A DNA stretch of 64,000 nt from an uncultured Pseudomonadota bacterium (GTDB lineage Bacteria > Pseudomonadota > Alphaproteobacteria > RF32 > CAG-239). The stretch lies in contig CASFNK010000033.1 in the NCBI GenBank assembly GCA_949295995.1, forward strand, positions 1-64,000. Reading direction: 5' to 3'. Of the stretch, positions 5,736 to 52,845 are shown piece after piece. The notes beneath the pieces are model-generated. The model saw only the letters and a program-made list of their open reading frames with translations, made no database searches and was not told where the DNA came from. Position 1 is the first letter of the stretch; the number at the start of each line of letters is the position of its first letter. A program made the translations under genes and the position numbers.

Positions 5736-6506
5736 ATGGAAAAATCCACTACAATCGGTCTATCAGCCGGCATTGCTTCTATTGGTATTGGTATGTATCT
5801 TAAAGGAGCTGATCCCCACGCTTTAATAAATCCGGCGGCATATTTAATTATTTTTGCAGGAACAGCGGCCGCATTATTTAACGCCTTCACAATGGAAGAA
5901 CTGAAGCGCTTTCCAACATTATGCAAAATAATATTCTGCGGGAAACCGCAAATGAGCAAACAAGAAGTTTTAGAACTATTTGTCAGCTTAGCGAAATCAG
6001 CCAAACAAGAAGGCGTCATGGCCATTGAAAAAAAAGCAAATGAAATAGAGGATCCATTTATAAAATCGACCTTATCCATGGTAGCCGATGGTTTTAGCGC
6101 AGATTTTATATACGAAACAGCCGATAACGATATCAAGCAAATGGAAGAGAGACACCGTGCAAATGCTTCTATCTTTTCGCAAGGAGGAATGTATGCCCCG
6201 ACACTTGGTGTTTTGGGAGCCGTTATTGGATTAATTGCAGCACTTGGTAACTTATCGGATATTGATAAATTAGGACACTCGATTGCGGCAGCCTTTGTCG
6301 CAACCTTATTGGGTATTTTTACCGGTTATGTCTGTTGGCACCCATTCGCTAACAAACTTAAAAGAATATCTGCCGCAGAAGTAGAAGTAAAGAAAATGAT
6401 TTTAGAAGGGGCACTCGCTTTACAATCAGGAGCTTCATCCATGGCAATGGAATCAAAATTACAATCTTTCATTCCTGCTTCGGAAAGAAAAGCCCGCCAA
6501 GATTAA
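5736..6506 (+). CDS. motA: Flagellar motor stator protein MotA
   Basis: 256 residues of the MotA/PomA type. There are two N-terminal helices, a cytoplasmic loop with REEG-like QEGVMAIEKKANEIEDPF, and two C-terminal helices with the family motif YAPTLGVLGAVIGLIAAL. It forms the proton or sodium channel with MotB and pushes on the rotor. motB follows 12 bases later, so the two are co-transcribed. A second, different MotA starts at 63713, so this genome probably has two stator sets. Confidence 0.9.
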   Translation: MEKSTTIGLSAGIASIGIGMYLKGADPHALINPAAYLIIFAGTAAALFNAFTMEELKRFPTLCKIIFCGKPQMSKQEVLELFVSLAKSAKQEGVMAIEKKANEIEDPFIKSTLSMVADGFSADFIYETADNDIKQMEERHRANASIFSQGGMYAPTLGVLGAVIGLIAALGNLSDIDKLGHSIAAAFVATLLGIFTGYVCWHPFANKLKRISAAEVEVKKMILEGALALQSGASSMAMESKLQSFIPASERKARQD

Positions 6507-6518
6507 AAAGGAAAGCAA

Positions 6519-7181
6519 ATGGTCAAGAAAAAGCCAGCCGAACAACCCCATGAAGAACACGCCGATGAAACGTGGTTAATTCCTTATTCTGATTTATTAA
6601 CCTTATTATTGGCATTATTCATTGTGTTATTTGCATCTTCTTCACTTGATAAGAAAAAAGCCGCACAAATTCAATATGCTTTTGCGGCAGCTTTTGGTTC
6701 TATGGGCGCCGACCAAATGAACGGAACCATTTTAAATTTTTTAGATGATGCAGCCAAAGCAAACTTAGGAGAAGGAATAGGCATTGGCTCGGATGCCCAA
6801 GGAGCAACTTTAGACATCACCAGTTCCATATTGTTTGAAAAAGGTTCTGACAAATTAAAAACCGGCACGGATGAACTTTTGGATAAAATAGCCACATTAC
6901 TAAAAGGAGATAAGTATCGCAGATTTGGAATTAGCGTTGAGGGACACACCGATACCGTTGAAACCAAACTCTCACGCTATAAATCCGATTGGGAATTATC
7001 TTCTGCCCGAGCAGGAACAATAGTGGATGCGTTAATATCTCGAGGAGTAAAAGAAGAGCGCTTCAAATCAGTCGGTATGGGACATATTGTTCCGAAATAT
7101 CCCAATACCAACACTTATGGCGAATATATCCCCGAGAATCAGGAAAGAAACCGCCGAGTTGTTGTCAGACTAGAAATTTAA
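6519..7181 (+). CDS. motB: Flagellar motor stator protein MotB
   Basis: 220 residues with a short polar N-terminus. A single membrane helix is preceded by IPYSDLLTLLLALFIVLFA, where the Asp is the ion-binding residue. A plug region follows, then an OmpA-like peptidoglycan-binding domain (VEGHTDTVE and LSSARAGTIVDALI, ending in RNRRVVVRLEI). It anchors the stator to the cell wall. AAAGGAAAGC lies before the ATG. The partner is the motA gene just upstream. Confidence 0.92.
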   Translation: MVKKKPAEQPHEEHADETWLIPYSDLLTLLLALFIVLFASSSLDKKKAAQIQYAFAAAFGSMGADQMNGTILNFLDDAAKANLGEGIGIGSDAQGATLDITSSILFEKGSDKLKTGTDELLDKIATLLKGDKYRRFGISVEGHTDTVETKLSRYKSDWELSSARAGTIVDALISRGVKEERFKSVGMGHIVPKYPNTNTYGEYIPENQERNRRVVVRLEI

Positions 7182-48764: not shown

Positions 48765-49430
48765 TTAGCAAGCCGGACGCTTAGACATCAAACCTTCCGA
48801 AATCTGCAGATTCGTCATAATCATACTGTCCAAGGCTTTATGATTAAGAGAGTCAACATTTTTGCCGACTTCCAAAGTTCTGCAAGAAACATAATCAGCC
48901 AACTTAATCAAATTTCCTTTAGTTTCTTTCGGCAAAGGATTATTTTCATCAGATGCCAAAGTTTTAATATAAACCCAAAGTTTCATATTATTATCCAAAG
49001 CACTAACCAACTCGGCAGTACTGTTATTTTCTCTGGCATTAGACAAGTCAACGGCACATTTCAACAAAGAAAAAGCCTCTTCTCTGGCTAAATTATTCTT
49101 AACGGCTTCCACCAAGCCCTCAGAAATTTGCATATTAATATTAACCAGACAATCAAAATCGGTTTTAGTCATTTTCAAGCCCTTAGAAAGAATCATTCTT
49201 TCAACGAACTTAGAGAGTTTCATCAAATTAGCTTTAATATCTTCGGGAAGCAAATTCTTTGCGTTCTTTAATGAAGTTTCTATTTCGACCCAAAGCTTCA
49301 AATTGCTGTCCAAAGCCTGAATGATTTCATGTTGATTATTGCTGGTTGAAGCTTTAGCCAACAACATCGCATGATTCAGCAAAACGACGGCTTCGTTTTC
49401 AGCATTTTTCACTTGGTTATTTGTATTCAT
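48765..49430 (-). CDS. Tandem FlaF-like flagellin synthesis regulator
   Basis: 221 residues from the ATG at 49430 (TTTGAGGAAGTAAAA upstream). Two repeats of about 100 residues match each other: repeat 1 has LDSNLKLWVEIETSL, LLPEDIKANLMKLSKFVE and INMQISEGL; repeat 2 has LDNNMKLWVYIKTL, PLPKETKGNLIKLADYVS and TNLQISEGL. The order (LxLW, PLPxExxxNLxxLxxxV, NxxIxxGL) is that of FlaF, normally about 110-130 residues with one copy. In Caulobacter FlaF works with FlbT to control flagellin translation. It is next to the flg genes. No FlbT gene is in the window. Confidence 0.8.
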   Translation of the reverse strand: MNTNNQVKNAENEAVVLLNHAMLLAKASTSNNQHEIIQALDSNLKLWVEIETSLKNAKNLLPEDIKANLMKLSKFVERMILSKGLKMTKTDFDCLVNINMQISEGLVEAVKNNLAREEAFSLLKCAVDLSNARENNSTAELVSALDNNMKLWVYIKTLASDENNPLPKETKGNLIKLADYVSCRTLEVGKNVDSLNHKALDSMIMTNLQISEGLMSKRPAC

Positions 49431-49523: not shown

Positions 49524-49637
49524 CTAGGCCTGCCTAAAATGGGGAGAAAGACAGGCCTTCGGACAAAGAGAGAGAAACACCTCGTAATAAAGTTTTCTCT
49601 CAAACGCACCGGAACAAATGGGGAGAATTCCGATGCG
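49524..49637 (-). ncRNA. Candidate structured RNA with two anti-Shine-Dalgarno loops
   Basis: Between flgH and the FlaF-like gene, read on the minus strand. Hairpin 1 (49605-49637) has 10 pairs with loop TTCTCCCCATTTG. A middle hairpin GAGAGAAA/TTTCTCTC spans 49570-49601. Hairpin 2 (49526-49558) has 9 pairs with loop TTTCTCCCCATTTTA. Both loops share TTCTCCCCATTT although their stems differ. The loop sequence is the exact complement of ribosome sites of flgF (9 bases) and of flgG and flgH (7 bases). It could be a 3'UTR-derived sRNA or a cis element. No own promoter or terminator was identified. Confidence 0.55.
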
Positions 49638-49654: not shown

Positions 49655-50419
49655 CTAGAAAGGAGACAGAATATCAATGAGCTGACGACCATATCTCGGT
49701 TCTTGCATATCAGAAACCGTACCCCGACCGCCATAAGATACTCTGAGTTCGGCAATTTTACTCGATTCGATAGAATTATCGGATTTAATGTCTGCGCGTC
49801 TGATAATACCTCTGACAGTGAGTTGGCGCAGTTCATAATTCACTCTGATTTCTTGGGTTCCCTCAATCACCAAATTATCATTCGGCAAAACTTGGGTAAC
49901 AACAGCCGCCATCGTCATGCTGATATCTTCCGAACGGTTAATTTTACCCTCGCCTTGAACATCATGATTCGACATCACGTTAAACAAATCGGTTACATCA
50001 ACACCTTCCGGCAGATAATCATGAGCATATTTTTCATATCCGGCCAAAGCATTAATATTAACCGTATCTTCGTTATCATCACGATACTGTTCGGTTTTGT
50101 TTTTCATAGAGGCATTATCCGAAGCCACGATATTAACCGTGATAATATCACCGACCTTAGCCGCTCTCTGGTCTTGGAAAAATCCGGAAGAGCCTTTTTT
50201 CCATAATGAGTTTGCCCCGGCATATTGCTCTGGCTTAGCTGGCATCGGCATAGAAACGGCCTGATACCCGGGAGCTTCCACCGGATTTTGAATTGGAGCC
50301 AAATCCGGCTCTTTACCGATATTTGACAATCTTGACCAGGTATTACACCCACTCAAAGCCGTTGCCATCATCAACACGGCGGCTAATTTACAAAATTTTT
50401 GTTTTGAATTATTCATCAT
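49655..50419 (-). CDS. flgH: Flagellar L-ring protein FlgH
   Basis: 254 residues. Lipoprotein signal with lipobox ALSGC. Core features are SLWKKGSSGFFQDQRAAKVGDIITVNIVASDNASMKN-type and VVTQVLPNDNLVIEGTQEIRVN followed by RGIIRRADI, all FlgH hallmarks. It forms the outer-membrane L ring. The ribosome site is GGGGAGATTGG, overlapping the flgA end. Last gene of flgF-flgG-flgA-flgH; the RNA candidate is directly downstream. Confidence 0.93.
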   Translation of the reverse strand: MMNNSKQKFCKLAAVLMMATALSGCNTWSRLSNIGKEPDLAPIQNPVEAPGYQAVSMPMPAKPEQYAGANSLWKKGSSGFFQDQRAAKVGDIITVNIVASDNASMKNKTEQYRDDNEDTVNINALAGYEKYAHDYLPEGVDVTDLFNVMSNHDVQGEGKINRSEDISMTMAAVVTQVLPNDNLVIEGTQEIRVNYELRQLTVRGIIRRADIKSDNSIESSKIAELRVSYGGRGTVSDMQEPRYGRQLIDILSPF

Positions 50420-50431
50420 CCAATCTCCCCT

Positions 50432-51154
50432 TTATTGGACATCTATCCTAACCGTATCGGCATCAACCACTTCACCGACAAGGATTTTTTTGCTTTTCGT
50501 ATTTTCGACTTCAATTTTATCGCCTTTTGCACCGTCTTGACGAGCTTGCCCGCGAGCGGTAATTTGCATTTTTTTGGTTTGATAAATTACCGTAATCAAG
50601 TCATTTTTATGAATAAGAATTTTCTCACCGATATCTCTGTCGGTAATAATTTTTCCGGCTTTAAGATATTTTTTAGCTTCTTTGTTTACGAGCTTATCCA
50701 AATCCACCACAAACATCGGTTTAATTCTGTTCATACGCACTTGAATGGTTTTGAGCATATCAGGCGTAATAACTTCGCCTTTATCAATATTTTTTGCCGG
50801 CACGTAGATATCGCCCAAAACATAAAACTTACCGCTAACGGTTGTTTGGGCAAAAGGTTTCCCATCGGCAAAAATTTCCACCTTGCATGAAAACTTGTTT
50901 TGCAGTTCATCAGCTTCTAATTGTTCAACCAAAATTTTAGCGCGTTGAGCATTTTCGATTTGAAAGACAGTTTGCCCACCGAAAAATTCCAAATCAACAG
51001 CCTCCAGCCGTCCCTGCTCCACAAATTCTTTTTTAATTGCCGCTGATACTTCATCTTCGCTCACCATCAACAGATTATCTGTTGCCTCTACCGCTTTCAA
51101 ATTTCCGACGGTTAAGATTAAAAATAACACACTGCAAATCAATCTAATTTTCAT
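50432..51154 (-). CDS. flgA: Flagella basal body P-ring assembly protein FlgA
   Basis: 240 residues. Signal peptide, then a SAF-type domain with YVPAKNIDKGEVITPDMLKTIQVRMNRI and a C-terminal NDLITVIYQTKKMQITARGQARQDGAKGDKIEVENTKSKK-type beta clip. A periplasmic chaperone for P-ring assembly. It sits between flgG and flgH, the usual alphaproteobacterial order. Confidence 0.9.
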   Translation of the reverse strand: MKIRLICSVLFLILTVGNLKAVEATDNLLMVSEDEVSAAIKKEFVEQGRLEAVDLEFFGGQTVFQIENAQRAKILVEQLEADELQNKFSCKVEIFADGKPFAQTTVSGKFYVLGDIYVPAKNIDKGEVITPDMLKTIQVRMNRIKPMFVVDLDKLVNKEAKKYLKAGKIITDRDIGEKILIHKNDLITVIYQTKKMQITARGQARQDGAKGDKIEVENTKSKKILVGEVVDADTVRIDVQ

Positions 51155-51173: not shown

Positions 51174-51962
51174 TTATCTAAGTTGCGTAATTGTACTCAA
51201 CATCTGATCTGAGGTTTGAATAATCTTAGAGTTCATTTCATAAGCACGTTGTGCCGAAACCAACTCGGTAATTTCCGAAACCGCATTCACATTAGATGTT
51301 TCAAGATATCCTTGCAGGATTGAACCAAACCCCTCGGCATCCGGATTATCGAGCACCGGCGCGCCTGATGCTTGGGTTTCCAAGAACAAGTTTTGCCCCA
51401 TGGCTTCCAAACCAGCCTCGTTTACAAAGGTTGCGAGTTCGAGTTGCCCGATATTAATTTCATCGGTTTCACCGTCTTGTTTTACCCAAACTTCTCCCGA
51501 ATTATTAACATAGACTTCGGTAGCATCTTCAGGGATGGTAATTTCGGGCTGAACGACATAACCGTCATGTGTAACAATCACACCGTCACCGTTTCTTTGG
51601 AAAGCACCGTCACGGGTATAAGCCGTTCCTTTACCTTCCGGAAGCTCTACTTGAAAATATCCTCGACCTTGAATGGCCAAATCCAGAGAGTTATTGGTAT
51701 TGGTCAAACCCGTACCGCCGGTAATACGATAAACGGCTGCGGTTCTGACACCGAGACCAAGCTGAATACCGGACGGTACGATTGTTTCACCGGCCGAAGA
51801 AGCAGCCCCCGGACGAACAATGTTTTGATAGAGCAAATCATTAAATTCAGCTCTGCGTTTGGTATAAGCCGTGGTGTTCATATTGGCAATATTGTTGGAA
51901 ATAACGTCAACATTGGTTTGTTGAGCCAGCATTCCCGTTGCACCGATAGCTAAAGATCTCAT
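51174..51962 (-). CDS. flgG: Flagellar distal rod protein FlgG
   Basis: 262 residues. MRSLAIGATGMLAQQTNVDVISNNIANMNTTAYTKRRAEFNDLLYQ-type rod N-terminus, a central DLAIQGRGYFQVELP and YTRDGAFQRNGDG, and a C-terminus EISELVSAQRAYEMNSKIIQTSDQMLSTITQLR-type. The ribosome site GAGGGGAGAGAA contains GGGGAGA, the complement of the anti-SD loops. Follows flgF by 17 bases. Confidence 0.95.
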   Translation of the reverse strand: MRSLAIGATGMLAQQTNVDVISNNIANMNTTAYTKRRAEFNDLLYQNIVRPGAASSAGETIVPSGIQLGLGVRTAAVYRITGGTGLTNTNNSLDLAIQGRGYFQVELPEGKGTAYTRDGAFQRNGDGVIVTHDGYVVQPEITIPEDATEVYVNNSGEVWVKQDGETDEINIGQLELATFVNEAGLEAMGQNLFLETQASGAPVLDNPDAEGFGSILQGYLETSNVNAVSEITELVSAQRAYEMNSKIIQTSDQMLSTITQLR

Positions 51963-51979
51963 TTTCTCTCCCCTCTAAA

Positions 51980-52723
51980 TTAAGCCAGCTGAGAATAAGC
52001 TGTAATAGTGTTAGACAAACGTTCATGTTCTTCATCAATCATACTTTGCACAATTTCGTATGAACGTTGCAGTTTAATCATTCTGGTCATTTCGCTGATT
52101 GAATCGACATTGGATTTTTCCAACGCACCTTGCACAATCTGCACATCTTGCGCGCCGACAATCATGTCATTGCCATTGGTATTGGCAAACAAGGTATCAC
52201 CGATTTTTTCCAGTTTTTGATTATCGGCAAATTTTACCGTCTTAATACGACCAATCGGACCATTTTCGGTCAAAACATCACCGCTTTCGCTAATGGTAAT
52301 ATCTTTTTCGCCCGGAGCAAAAAAGAACGGCTCATTATTTTCCGACATAACGGCATAACCCTCGCTCGTAACCAATTGTCCGTCAGCATTCAAAGTAAAA
52401 TTACCTTTTTTGGTGTACATTTCTCCTTGCGGGGTTTCTACAGCAAAGAAATTATCACCCCGAACCGCCAAATCAAAAACATTTCCGGTTTCAACAATCG
52501 CCCCTTCGCTAAAGTCATGATATTGCCCGTAATCCATTGTAAAATAGACCGGAACTTTACCAAAACCTTGCGCTTGAGGCGTCTGTGTCAAATAAGATGT
52601 GAAAATTGCACCATCTTGCTTGTAACCACTGGTGTTCATATTTGCCATATTATTGGAAACAATATCCATTTGTTTCCATAAGGCCATTTGGCGTGAAAGT
52701 GCAATATATTTGGTATTATCCAT
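51980..52723 (-). CDS. flgF: Flagellar proximal rod protein FlgF
   Basis: 247 residues. N-terminus with LSRQMALWKQMDIVSNNMANMNTSGYKQD-type motif, central FDLAVRGDNFFAVETP and YTKKGNFTLNADGQLV, C-terminus EMTRMIKLQRSYEIVQSMIDEE. First gene of the operon. Its ribosome site TTGGGGAGAAT (52730-52740) is complementary over 9 bases to the loops of the RNA candidate at 49.5 kb. Confidence 0.94.
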   Translation of the reverse strand: MDNTKYIALSRQMALWKQMDIVSNNMANMNTSGYKQDGAIFTSYLTQTPQAQGFGKVPVYFTMDYGQYHDFSEGAIVETGNVFDLAVRGDNFFAVETPQGEMYTKKGNFTLNADGQLVTSEGYAVMSENNEPFFFAPGEKDITISESGDVLTENGPIGRIKTVKFADNQKLEKIGDTLFANTNGNDMIVGAQDVQIVQGALEKSNVDSISEMTRMIKLQRSYEIVQSMIDEEHERLSNTITAYSQLA

Positions 52724-52845
52724 TAATTTATTCTCCCCAATAAAAATCGGATAATTTTCTTTGCTTATAAGTAATGCAAATTACGTGCCAAATTTTAAGA
52801 AAGTTTTAACGGATTATTTTTTACTTTGAAAATTCAGTGATTTAA

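Follow-up and report, generated by a model that had tools for sequence, protein, structure and literature searches.

A hairpin array at the end of the flgF operon

The window, that is, the whole 64,000-nt stretch analysed, carries on its minus strand the genes flgF, flgG, flgA and flgH, followed by an array of three hairpins and then by a flaF-like gene (Table 1). All flagellar genes around the hairpins lie on the flgH strand. The sigma54-type site ahead of flgF was found in all 39 of the 39 family loci compared. The flgB-flgC-fliE operon is located on a separate contig and has its own sigma54 promoter. The FlaF-like gene to which the initial annotation drew attention does adjoin the array on its downstream side; it encodes two FlaF domains in tandem, and its relatives match it over the full length. 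Elsewhere in the window, two motA-motB pairs (5736-7181 and 63713 onward, plus strand) share a single contig of this 1.6 Mb genome.

Table 1. Positions of the flagellar genes, ribosome sites and hairpins in the window.
Feature	Position	Strand	Description	Basis
sigma54-type promoter	52775..52790	−	TGGCACGTAATTTGCA; promoter of flgF operon, 51 nt ahead of flgF	
flgF ribosome site	52731..52739	−	TGGGGAGAA; 9-nt complement to both loops; GGGGA in 49/49 family genomes	
flgF	51980..52723	−	rod protein, leading gene of operon	Pfam, phmmer
flgG ribosome site	51967..51973	−	GGGGAGA; GGGGA in 45/50, GGGA in 50/50 family genomes	
flgG	51174..51962	−	distal rod	Pfam, phmmer
flgA	50432..51154	−	P-ring chaperone; no GGGGA site	Pfam
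flgH ribosome site	50424..50430	−	GGGGAGA; GGGGA in 32/48 family genomes	
flgH	49655..50419	−	L-ring; stop about 17 nt ahead of hairpins	Pfam
Hairpin 1 (H1)	49605..49637	−	11 bp, loop TCTCCCCATTT, -15.5 kcal/mol; loop complements flgF, flgG, flgH and flgB SDs	fold and alignment
Anti-SD loop core 1	49616..49627	−	TTCTCCCCATTT	exact match
Hairpin 2 (H2)	49570..49601	−	13 bp, -11.1 kcal/mol, no C-rich loop	fold and alignment
Hairpin 3 (H3)	49526..49558	−	10 bp, loop TTCTCCCCATTTT, -16.0 kcal/mol	fold and alignment
Anti-SD loop core 2	49537..49548	−	TTCTCCCCATTT	exact match
flaF-like gene	48765..49430	−	downstream neighbour of array; SD AGGAAG; not a predicted target	Pfam

Folding recovered the architecture proposed initially, two minus-strand hairpins that differ in their stems and share a 12-base loop, with a third hairpin between them: H1 and H3 have unrelated stems and the identical loop core TTCTCCCCATTT. 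The 161-nt region folded to -52.6, compared with -35.9 for shuffled sequences (z = -4.85), and none of 200 shuffles was as stable. Our scans of this genome covered 1.24 of its 1.6 Mb, in stretches. Within them the 12-mer occurred twice, both times between flgH and flaF, and just 2 of 180 intergenic TCCCC sites fell into the loops of strong hairpins, namely H1 and H3. No Rfam family matched the array, either at the gathering threshold on the window or at E<=1 on eight loci. Among near relatives the stem of H2 has the same sequence in four genomes, and within the genus one base pair of H1 is altered on both sides. Across the four, 99.3% of pair cells were kept and two pairs were altered on both sides, which beats slid versions of the alignment but remains weak support at n=4.

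A possible second copy of the array, a terminator hairpin that follows a ccrM-like gene and has the loop TTCCCCTA, was rejected and left as a probable coincidence. This strong hairpin (G000:C10:20460, minus strand), 3' of the DNA methyltransferase gene, resembles the last array hairpin of other genera.

The loops complement a rare ribosome site of rod genes

The complements attributed to the loops, 9 nt at flgF and 7 nt each at flgG and flgH, were present as described. The site is also as unusual as had been claimed: GGGGA occurs within 22 nt upstream of 41 of 1150 predicted starts in the same genome (3.6%) and is not equally common across genes. There it precedes flgB, fliE, flgF, flgG, flgH and fliL, and it is absent from flgC, flgD, flgE, motA, motB, fliM and flaF. 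In family genomes GGGGA was conserved at flgB (37/40) and fliE (29/39), and at flgC, which sits between the two, it was found in only 7 of 40 (flgB versus flgC, Fisher p=5e-12). Although fliL carries GGGGA in the close relatives of the window, it does so in just 8 of 30 genomes, and both it and fliM (6/29) were dropped as targets. This pattern of conservation delimits a target set made up of rod genes and, often, the L-ring gene. The targets named initially, flgF, flgG and flgH, thus stand but are incomplete, as flgB and fliE outside the window belong with them. Describing the targets as early flagellar genes is too broad; the term should be narrowed to the rod genes flgB, fliE, flgF and flgG, plus flgH in two thirds of genomes, as the hook and motor genes of this genome lack the site. 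The other sigma54 promoters found here lie ahead of a flgE-like gene and of the operon that leads to flgD. Both lack GGGGA, and the mark is therefore not merely a property of the sigma54 class.

When all 1150 genes were ranked by predicted pairing with loop 1, flgF came 4th, fliE 5th, flgH 9th, flgB 12th and flgG 22nd. Flagellar or chemotaxis genes made up 5 of 25 hits (p=0.0014); the p value of a 6/11 enrichment was post hoc and is not relied on. The best match was a dnaA-like gene (G000:C2:81002) with the leader AUGGGGAGAUAAA, which possibly reflects a link to replication or an off-target. Other genes with GGGGA, such as this one, imply either that off-targets exist or that pairing alone is not decisive. 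In the flgF leader (52712-52760, minus strand), ATTATCC can pair with the start ATGGATAAT, placing GGGGAGA in a loop, and ATTATCC is kept in most relatives. It is possible that this loop makes loop-loop contact with the hairpins.

The array is conserved where FlgH is present

FlgH was found in 42 of 82 family genomes. The flgH-flaF region was taken from all 42 and from some more, giving 52 regions. At least one hairpin with a YCCC loop was present in 49 of these and at least two in 46; the mean per region was 2.06, and dinucleotide shuffles gave 0.20. Loops recurred across genera as UCUCCCCA, UUUCCCCA, UUUCCCCU or AUUCCCUA, and the 5' stem 8-mers were only 33% identical between genera. The stems had been noted simply as different, which is true of the window; family-wide they are the variable part, and what is conserved is not the whole loop but a YCCC(C/U) core, with flanks that track the targets. 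Where relatives retain GGGGA sites, the loops remained constant too; a lack of conservation there would have refuted the initial proposal.

Each of 24 genomes contained the exact hairpin-A pattern a single time, invariably next to flgH. It was found in none of the relatives lacking flgH or flagella, and a reversed-pattern control gave 0 matches. About half of the family genomes have no FlgH, and the exact pattern is missing along with it.

Loops and ribosome sites changed together

The evidence that goes beyond the initial annotation is the coevolution of loops and ribosome sites. Genus g8 has UUAUUCCCUA in its outer loops and UAGGGAAUAA at the flgG site, an exact 10-nt complement in G013, and hairpin A and flgF retain UCUCCCCA and UUGGGGAGA, respectively. 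At flgB of this genus, the fourth G is lost in two genomes (AAAGGGAAUG in G028 and AUAGGGAAUAA in G079), and GGGGAA is retained in G013 and G066. When arrays were permuted between genera, the own array gave the better fit at flgG (p=0.0053) and at flgB (p=0.0013). For flgF, flgH and fliE the same permutation was not significant at 0.05, perhaps because their core varies little. As far as sequence comparison can tell, these results support the view that loops and binding sites changed together in evolution. The flgB operon lies elsewhere in the genome, and its coevolution with the array is most simply read as pairing in trans.

Related arrangements outside the family

An outgroup of 55 loci was assembled from a genome scan with FlgG. 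None of them had GGGGA at flgF and none had the array; at flgG, four Magnetospirillum-type loci carried GGGGAAGGA or similar. In most members of a second gut family (12 genomes), flgH is followed by a single hairpin, and its loop matches the SDs of the same genome in other letters. Loop UUUUUUCCUCCCUUU accompanies flgH site AAAGGGAGGAAAAA, and UUUUCCUCCCUU accompanies AAGGGAGGAAAA; the flgH SD is matched over 14 and 12 nt. Comparing own with swapped pairs in this family gave p=0.04 for flgH, and the test was not significant for flgF and flgG.

A loop after flgH that matches flgF also occurs in scattered Rhodospirillales-type genomes. Over 47 outgroup loci the match to flgF gave a signal (p=0.0007 and 0.0001), and a few lineages account for it, namely Curvivirga, Aestuariispira, Tistlia and relatives. 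A class-wide rule was rejected: when 20 loci drawn from different families of the class were compared, flgH was usually followed by a plain terminator. The Curvivirga and Aestuariispira loci (L276 and L290) have a common post-flgH stem resembling GAATTACGC/GCGTAATTC and a loop, CU-rich and roughly 28 nt long, that matches the flgF, flgG and flgH ribosome sites.

Origin and partners of the putative RNA

Hfq was encoded in 18 of 18 genomes searched. CsrA was found in 0 of the 18 by a search whose control was positive in E. coli and B. subtilis. The presence of Hfq and absence of CsrA favour Hfq-type pairing over a CsrA decoy. On the flgH strand a T-run follows a C-loop hairpin in 31 of 51 relatives, although A/T-rich stems blur this signal. 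In the genome of the window no T-run follows hairpin 3 and no terminator was called, leaving the 3' end unproven here.

A promoter scan found no promoter at hairpin 1. The conserved TTATTATGT ahead of hairpin A was considered as the promoter of a free sRNA and rejected, as no -35 partner is evident. In 36 genomes (for example at loci L059, L064 and L068) an unpaired UUAUUAUGU or UUAUUGUGU lies 10-13 nt 5' of hairpin A; it is usually preceded by UUCCC(C), has no evident -35 box and is absent from the genus of the window. This UUAUUAUGU element could be a cleavage or processing site or an additional pairing site, but it is only a hint.

Discussion

The predicted hairpins, their complementarity to the rod-gene sites, the rarity of the SD elsewhere in the genome, the conservation of the array and the coevolution of loop and SD are read directly from the sequence. 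Without transcript data, we consider it likely that the array is an RNA derived from a 3'UTR which, probably with help from Hfq, acts in trans to block the ribosome sites of rod genes. Its source would be the 3' end of the flgF-flgG-flgA-flgH transcript driven by sigma54; that it is cut out of the flgH mRNA, and does not have a start of its own, is inferred. Within this operon its C-rich loops would pair with the GGGGA sites of flgF and flgG and, often, of flgH, and the same loops would pair with the flgB and fliE mRNA of the separate flgB-flgC-fliE operon. A covered ribosome site would be translated less, and the completed rod/L-ring transcript would thereby feed back on rod-protein synthesis. 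When sRNAs occlude an SD, translation is normally repressed, which makes feedback on rod synthesis the likely role. A stable RNA, its cleavage from the flgH mRNA, help by Hfq, repression and the feedback role all remain inferences, as does the notion that the RNA shuts off rod-protein synthesis rather than activating it. It cannot be excluded that the RNA activates its targets, or influences the decay of their mRNA, instead of repressing them.

It appears unlikely that the loops act solely in cis by folding back, through long-range 3'-5' contacts, on the flgF, flgG and flgH sites of the same mRNA without any free sRNA. Such a model accommodates the single flgFGAH transcript carrying both the loops and three SDs, and the failure to find a separate promoter. 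It leaves unexplained why a conserved GGGGA is kept at flgB and fliE, which lie on a different contig under their own sigma54 promoter, and why flgB gives the strongest coevolution (p=0.0013). Highly improbable is a protein decoy, in which the loops capture a protein whose other binding sites are the GGGGA motifs or the sequences complementary to them, as CsrB/RsmZ do for CsrA. The repeated identical motif in several loops on free stems is indeed a CsrB-like layout, but the loops hold the complement of the mRNA sites and not the same motif, their flanks follow the SD flanks as base pairing predicts, and CsrA itself was missing from all 18 genomes.

Still less plausible is activity of the opposite strand, on which the loops would read GGGGAGA and either mimic ribosome sites or sponge C-rich RNA. 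Perfect stems are symmetric and would permit this, and 21 of 51 relatives have an A-run on the 5' side of a hairpin. However, the surrounding flagellar genes are all transcribed from the flgH strand, and the T-runs 3' of hairpins on that strand, blurred as they are, point the same way. We give least credence to ordinary operon-end hairpins, whether terminators or mRNA-protecting stems, that match the SD by chance. The site is the end of an operon, and many relatives have a T-run behind the C-loop hairpin; chance would nevertheless have to account for the confinement of intergenic TCCCC in strong hairpin loops to the array, for constant loops on variable stems and for loop-SD coevolution, and most outgroup operon ends lack such hairpins altogether. 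We retain an RNA that pairs in trans with the rod-gene ribosome sites as the preferred reading.

Parts of this arrangement have precedents. NfeR1, of the ar14 family in Sinorhizobium meliloti, is induced by N stress and represses ntrB and transporter mRNAs by pairing redundant motifs at the translation start (PMC10746234; PMC3927594). The array resembles these ar14 (cuckoo-type) anti-SD RNAs in having several hairpins with an identical unpaired anti-SD motif and divergent stems. It differs in the motif, which is CCUCCUCCC in ar14 and UYUCCCCA or UUCCCUA here (the family loops are TCTCCCCA, TTTCCCCA, TTTCCCCT and ATTCCCTA), and in its location between flgH and flaF, its matches to rod genes and its lack of an Rfam match. 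By motif and Rfam non-match the array fails to qualify as an ar14 member. OppZ and CarZ of Vibrio cholerae are autoregulatory RNAs from operon 3' ends that pair with the transcript of the same operon and inhibit its translation, with processing by RNase E demonstrated (PMC7398697). The array likewise lies at the 3' end of an operon and complements the translation starts of flgF, flgG and flgH; its cleavage, however, is only supposed, its target sequence is common to several genes and a second operon, and the pairing would be done by hairpin loops.

Flagellar mRNAs are also known to give rise to sRNAs. According to its abstract, CJnc230 (FlmE) of Campylobacter jejuni is processed from the 3' end of the RpoN-dependent flgE mRNA and represses flgM and Cj1387c (PMC11187230), and as described there it is similarly an sRNA from a flagellar mRNA acting on other flagellar genes. 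The targets given are not rod genes, and that abstract mentions neither repeated anti-SD loops nor SD coevolution. The E. coli sRNAs FliX, FlgO, MotR and UhpU are Hfq-bound and derive from flagellar mRNA ends, and FliX lowers flagellar gene expression (PMC10578931); they belong to the sigma28 class and involve other genes, and the interactions of MotR and FliX with the S10 operon map inside coding sequences (PMC10578931). What appears new here is that the array is devoted to rod genes by way of a ribosome site of their own, and that loops and sites have been re-lettered together, although our coverage of the literature was partial and an earlier description cannot be excluded.

The carriers are gut alphaproteobacteria. 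To our knowledge, the shut-off of rod proteins after rod completion is understood mainly at the transcriptional level. We tentatively suggest, as a possibility rather than the expected outcome, that these bacteria address a single stage of assembly by a private SD/anti-SD code. Within the sigma54 class, rod genes would carry a dedicated site absent from hook and motor genes, and an RNA from the end of the last rod/L-ring transcript would silence all of them as a rod-to-hook checkpoint. The code may drift (GGGGA/UCCCC, UAGGGAA/UUCCCUA and GGGAGGA/UCCUCCC) and, within Alphaproteobacteria, may have originated or changed its letters on more than one occasion. Because natural compensatory changes exist in genus g8 and in the second family, the pairing can be tested from sequence. 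One compact RNA seems to pick out rod genes by their ribosome site within a sigma54 class that they share with hook genes. The joint change of an sRNA and several unlinked targets is also unusually clear here, which should be useful for studying how sRNA regulons evolve.
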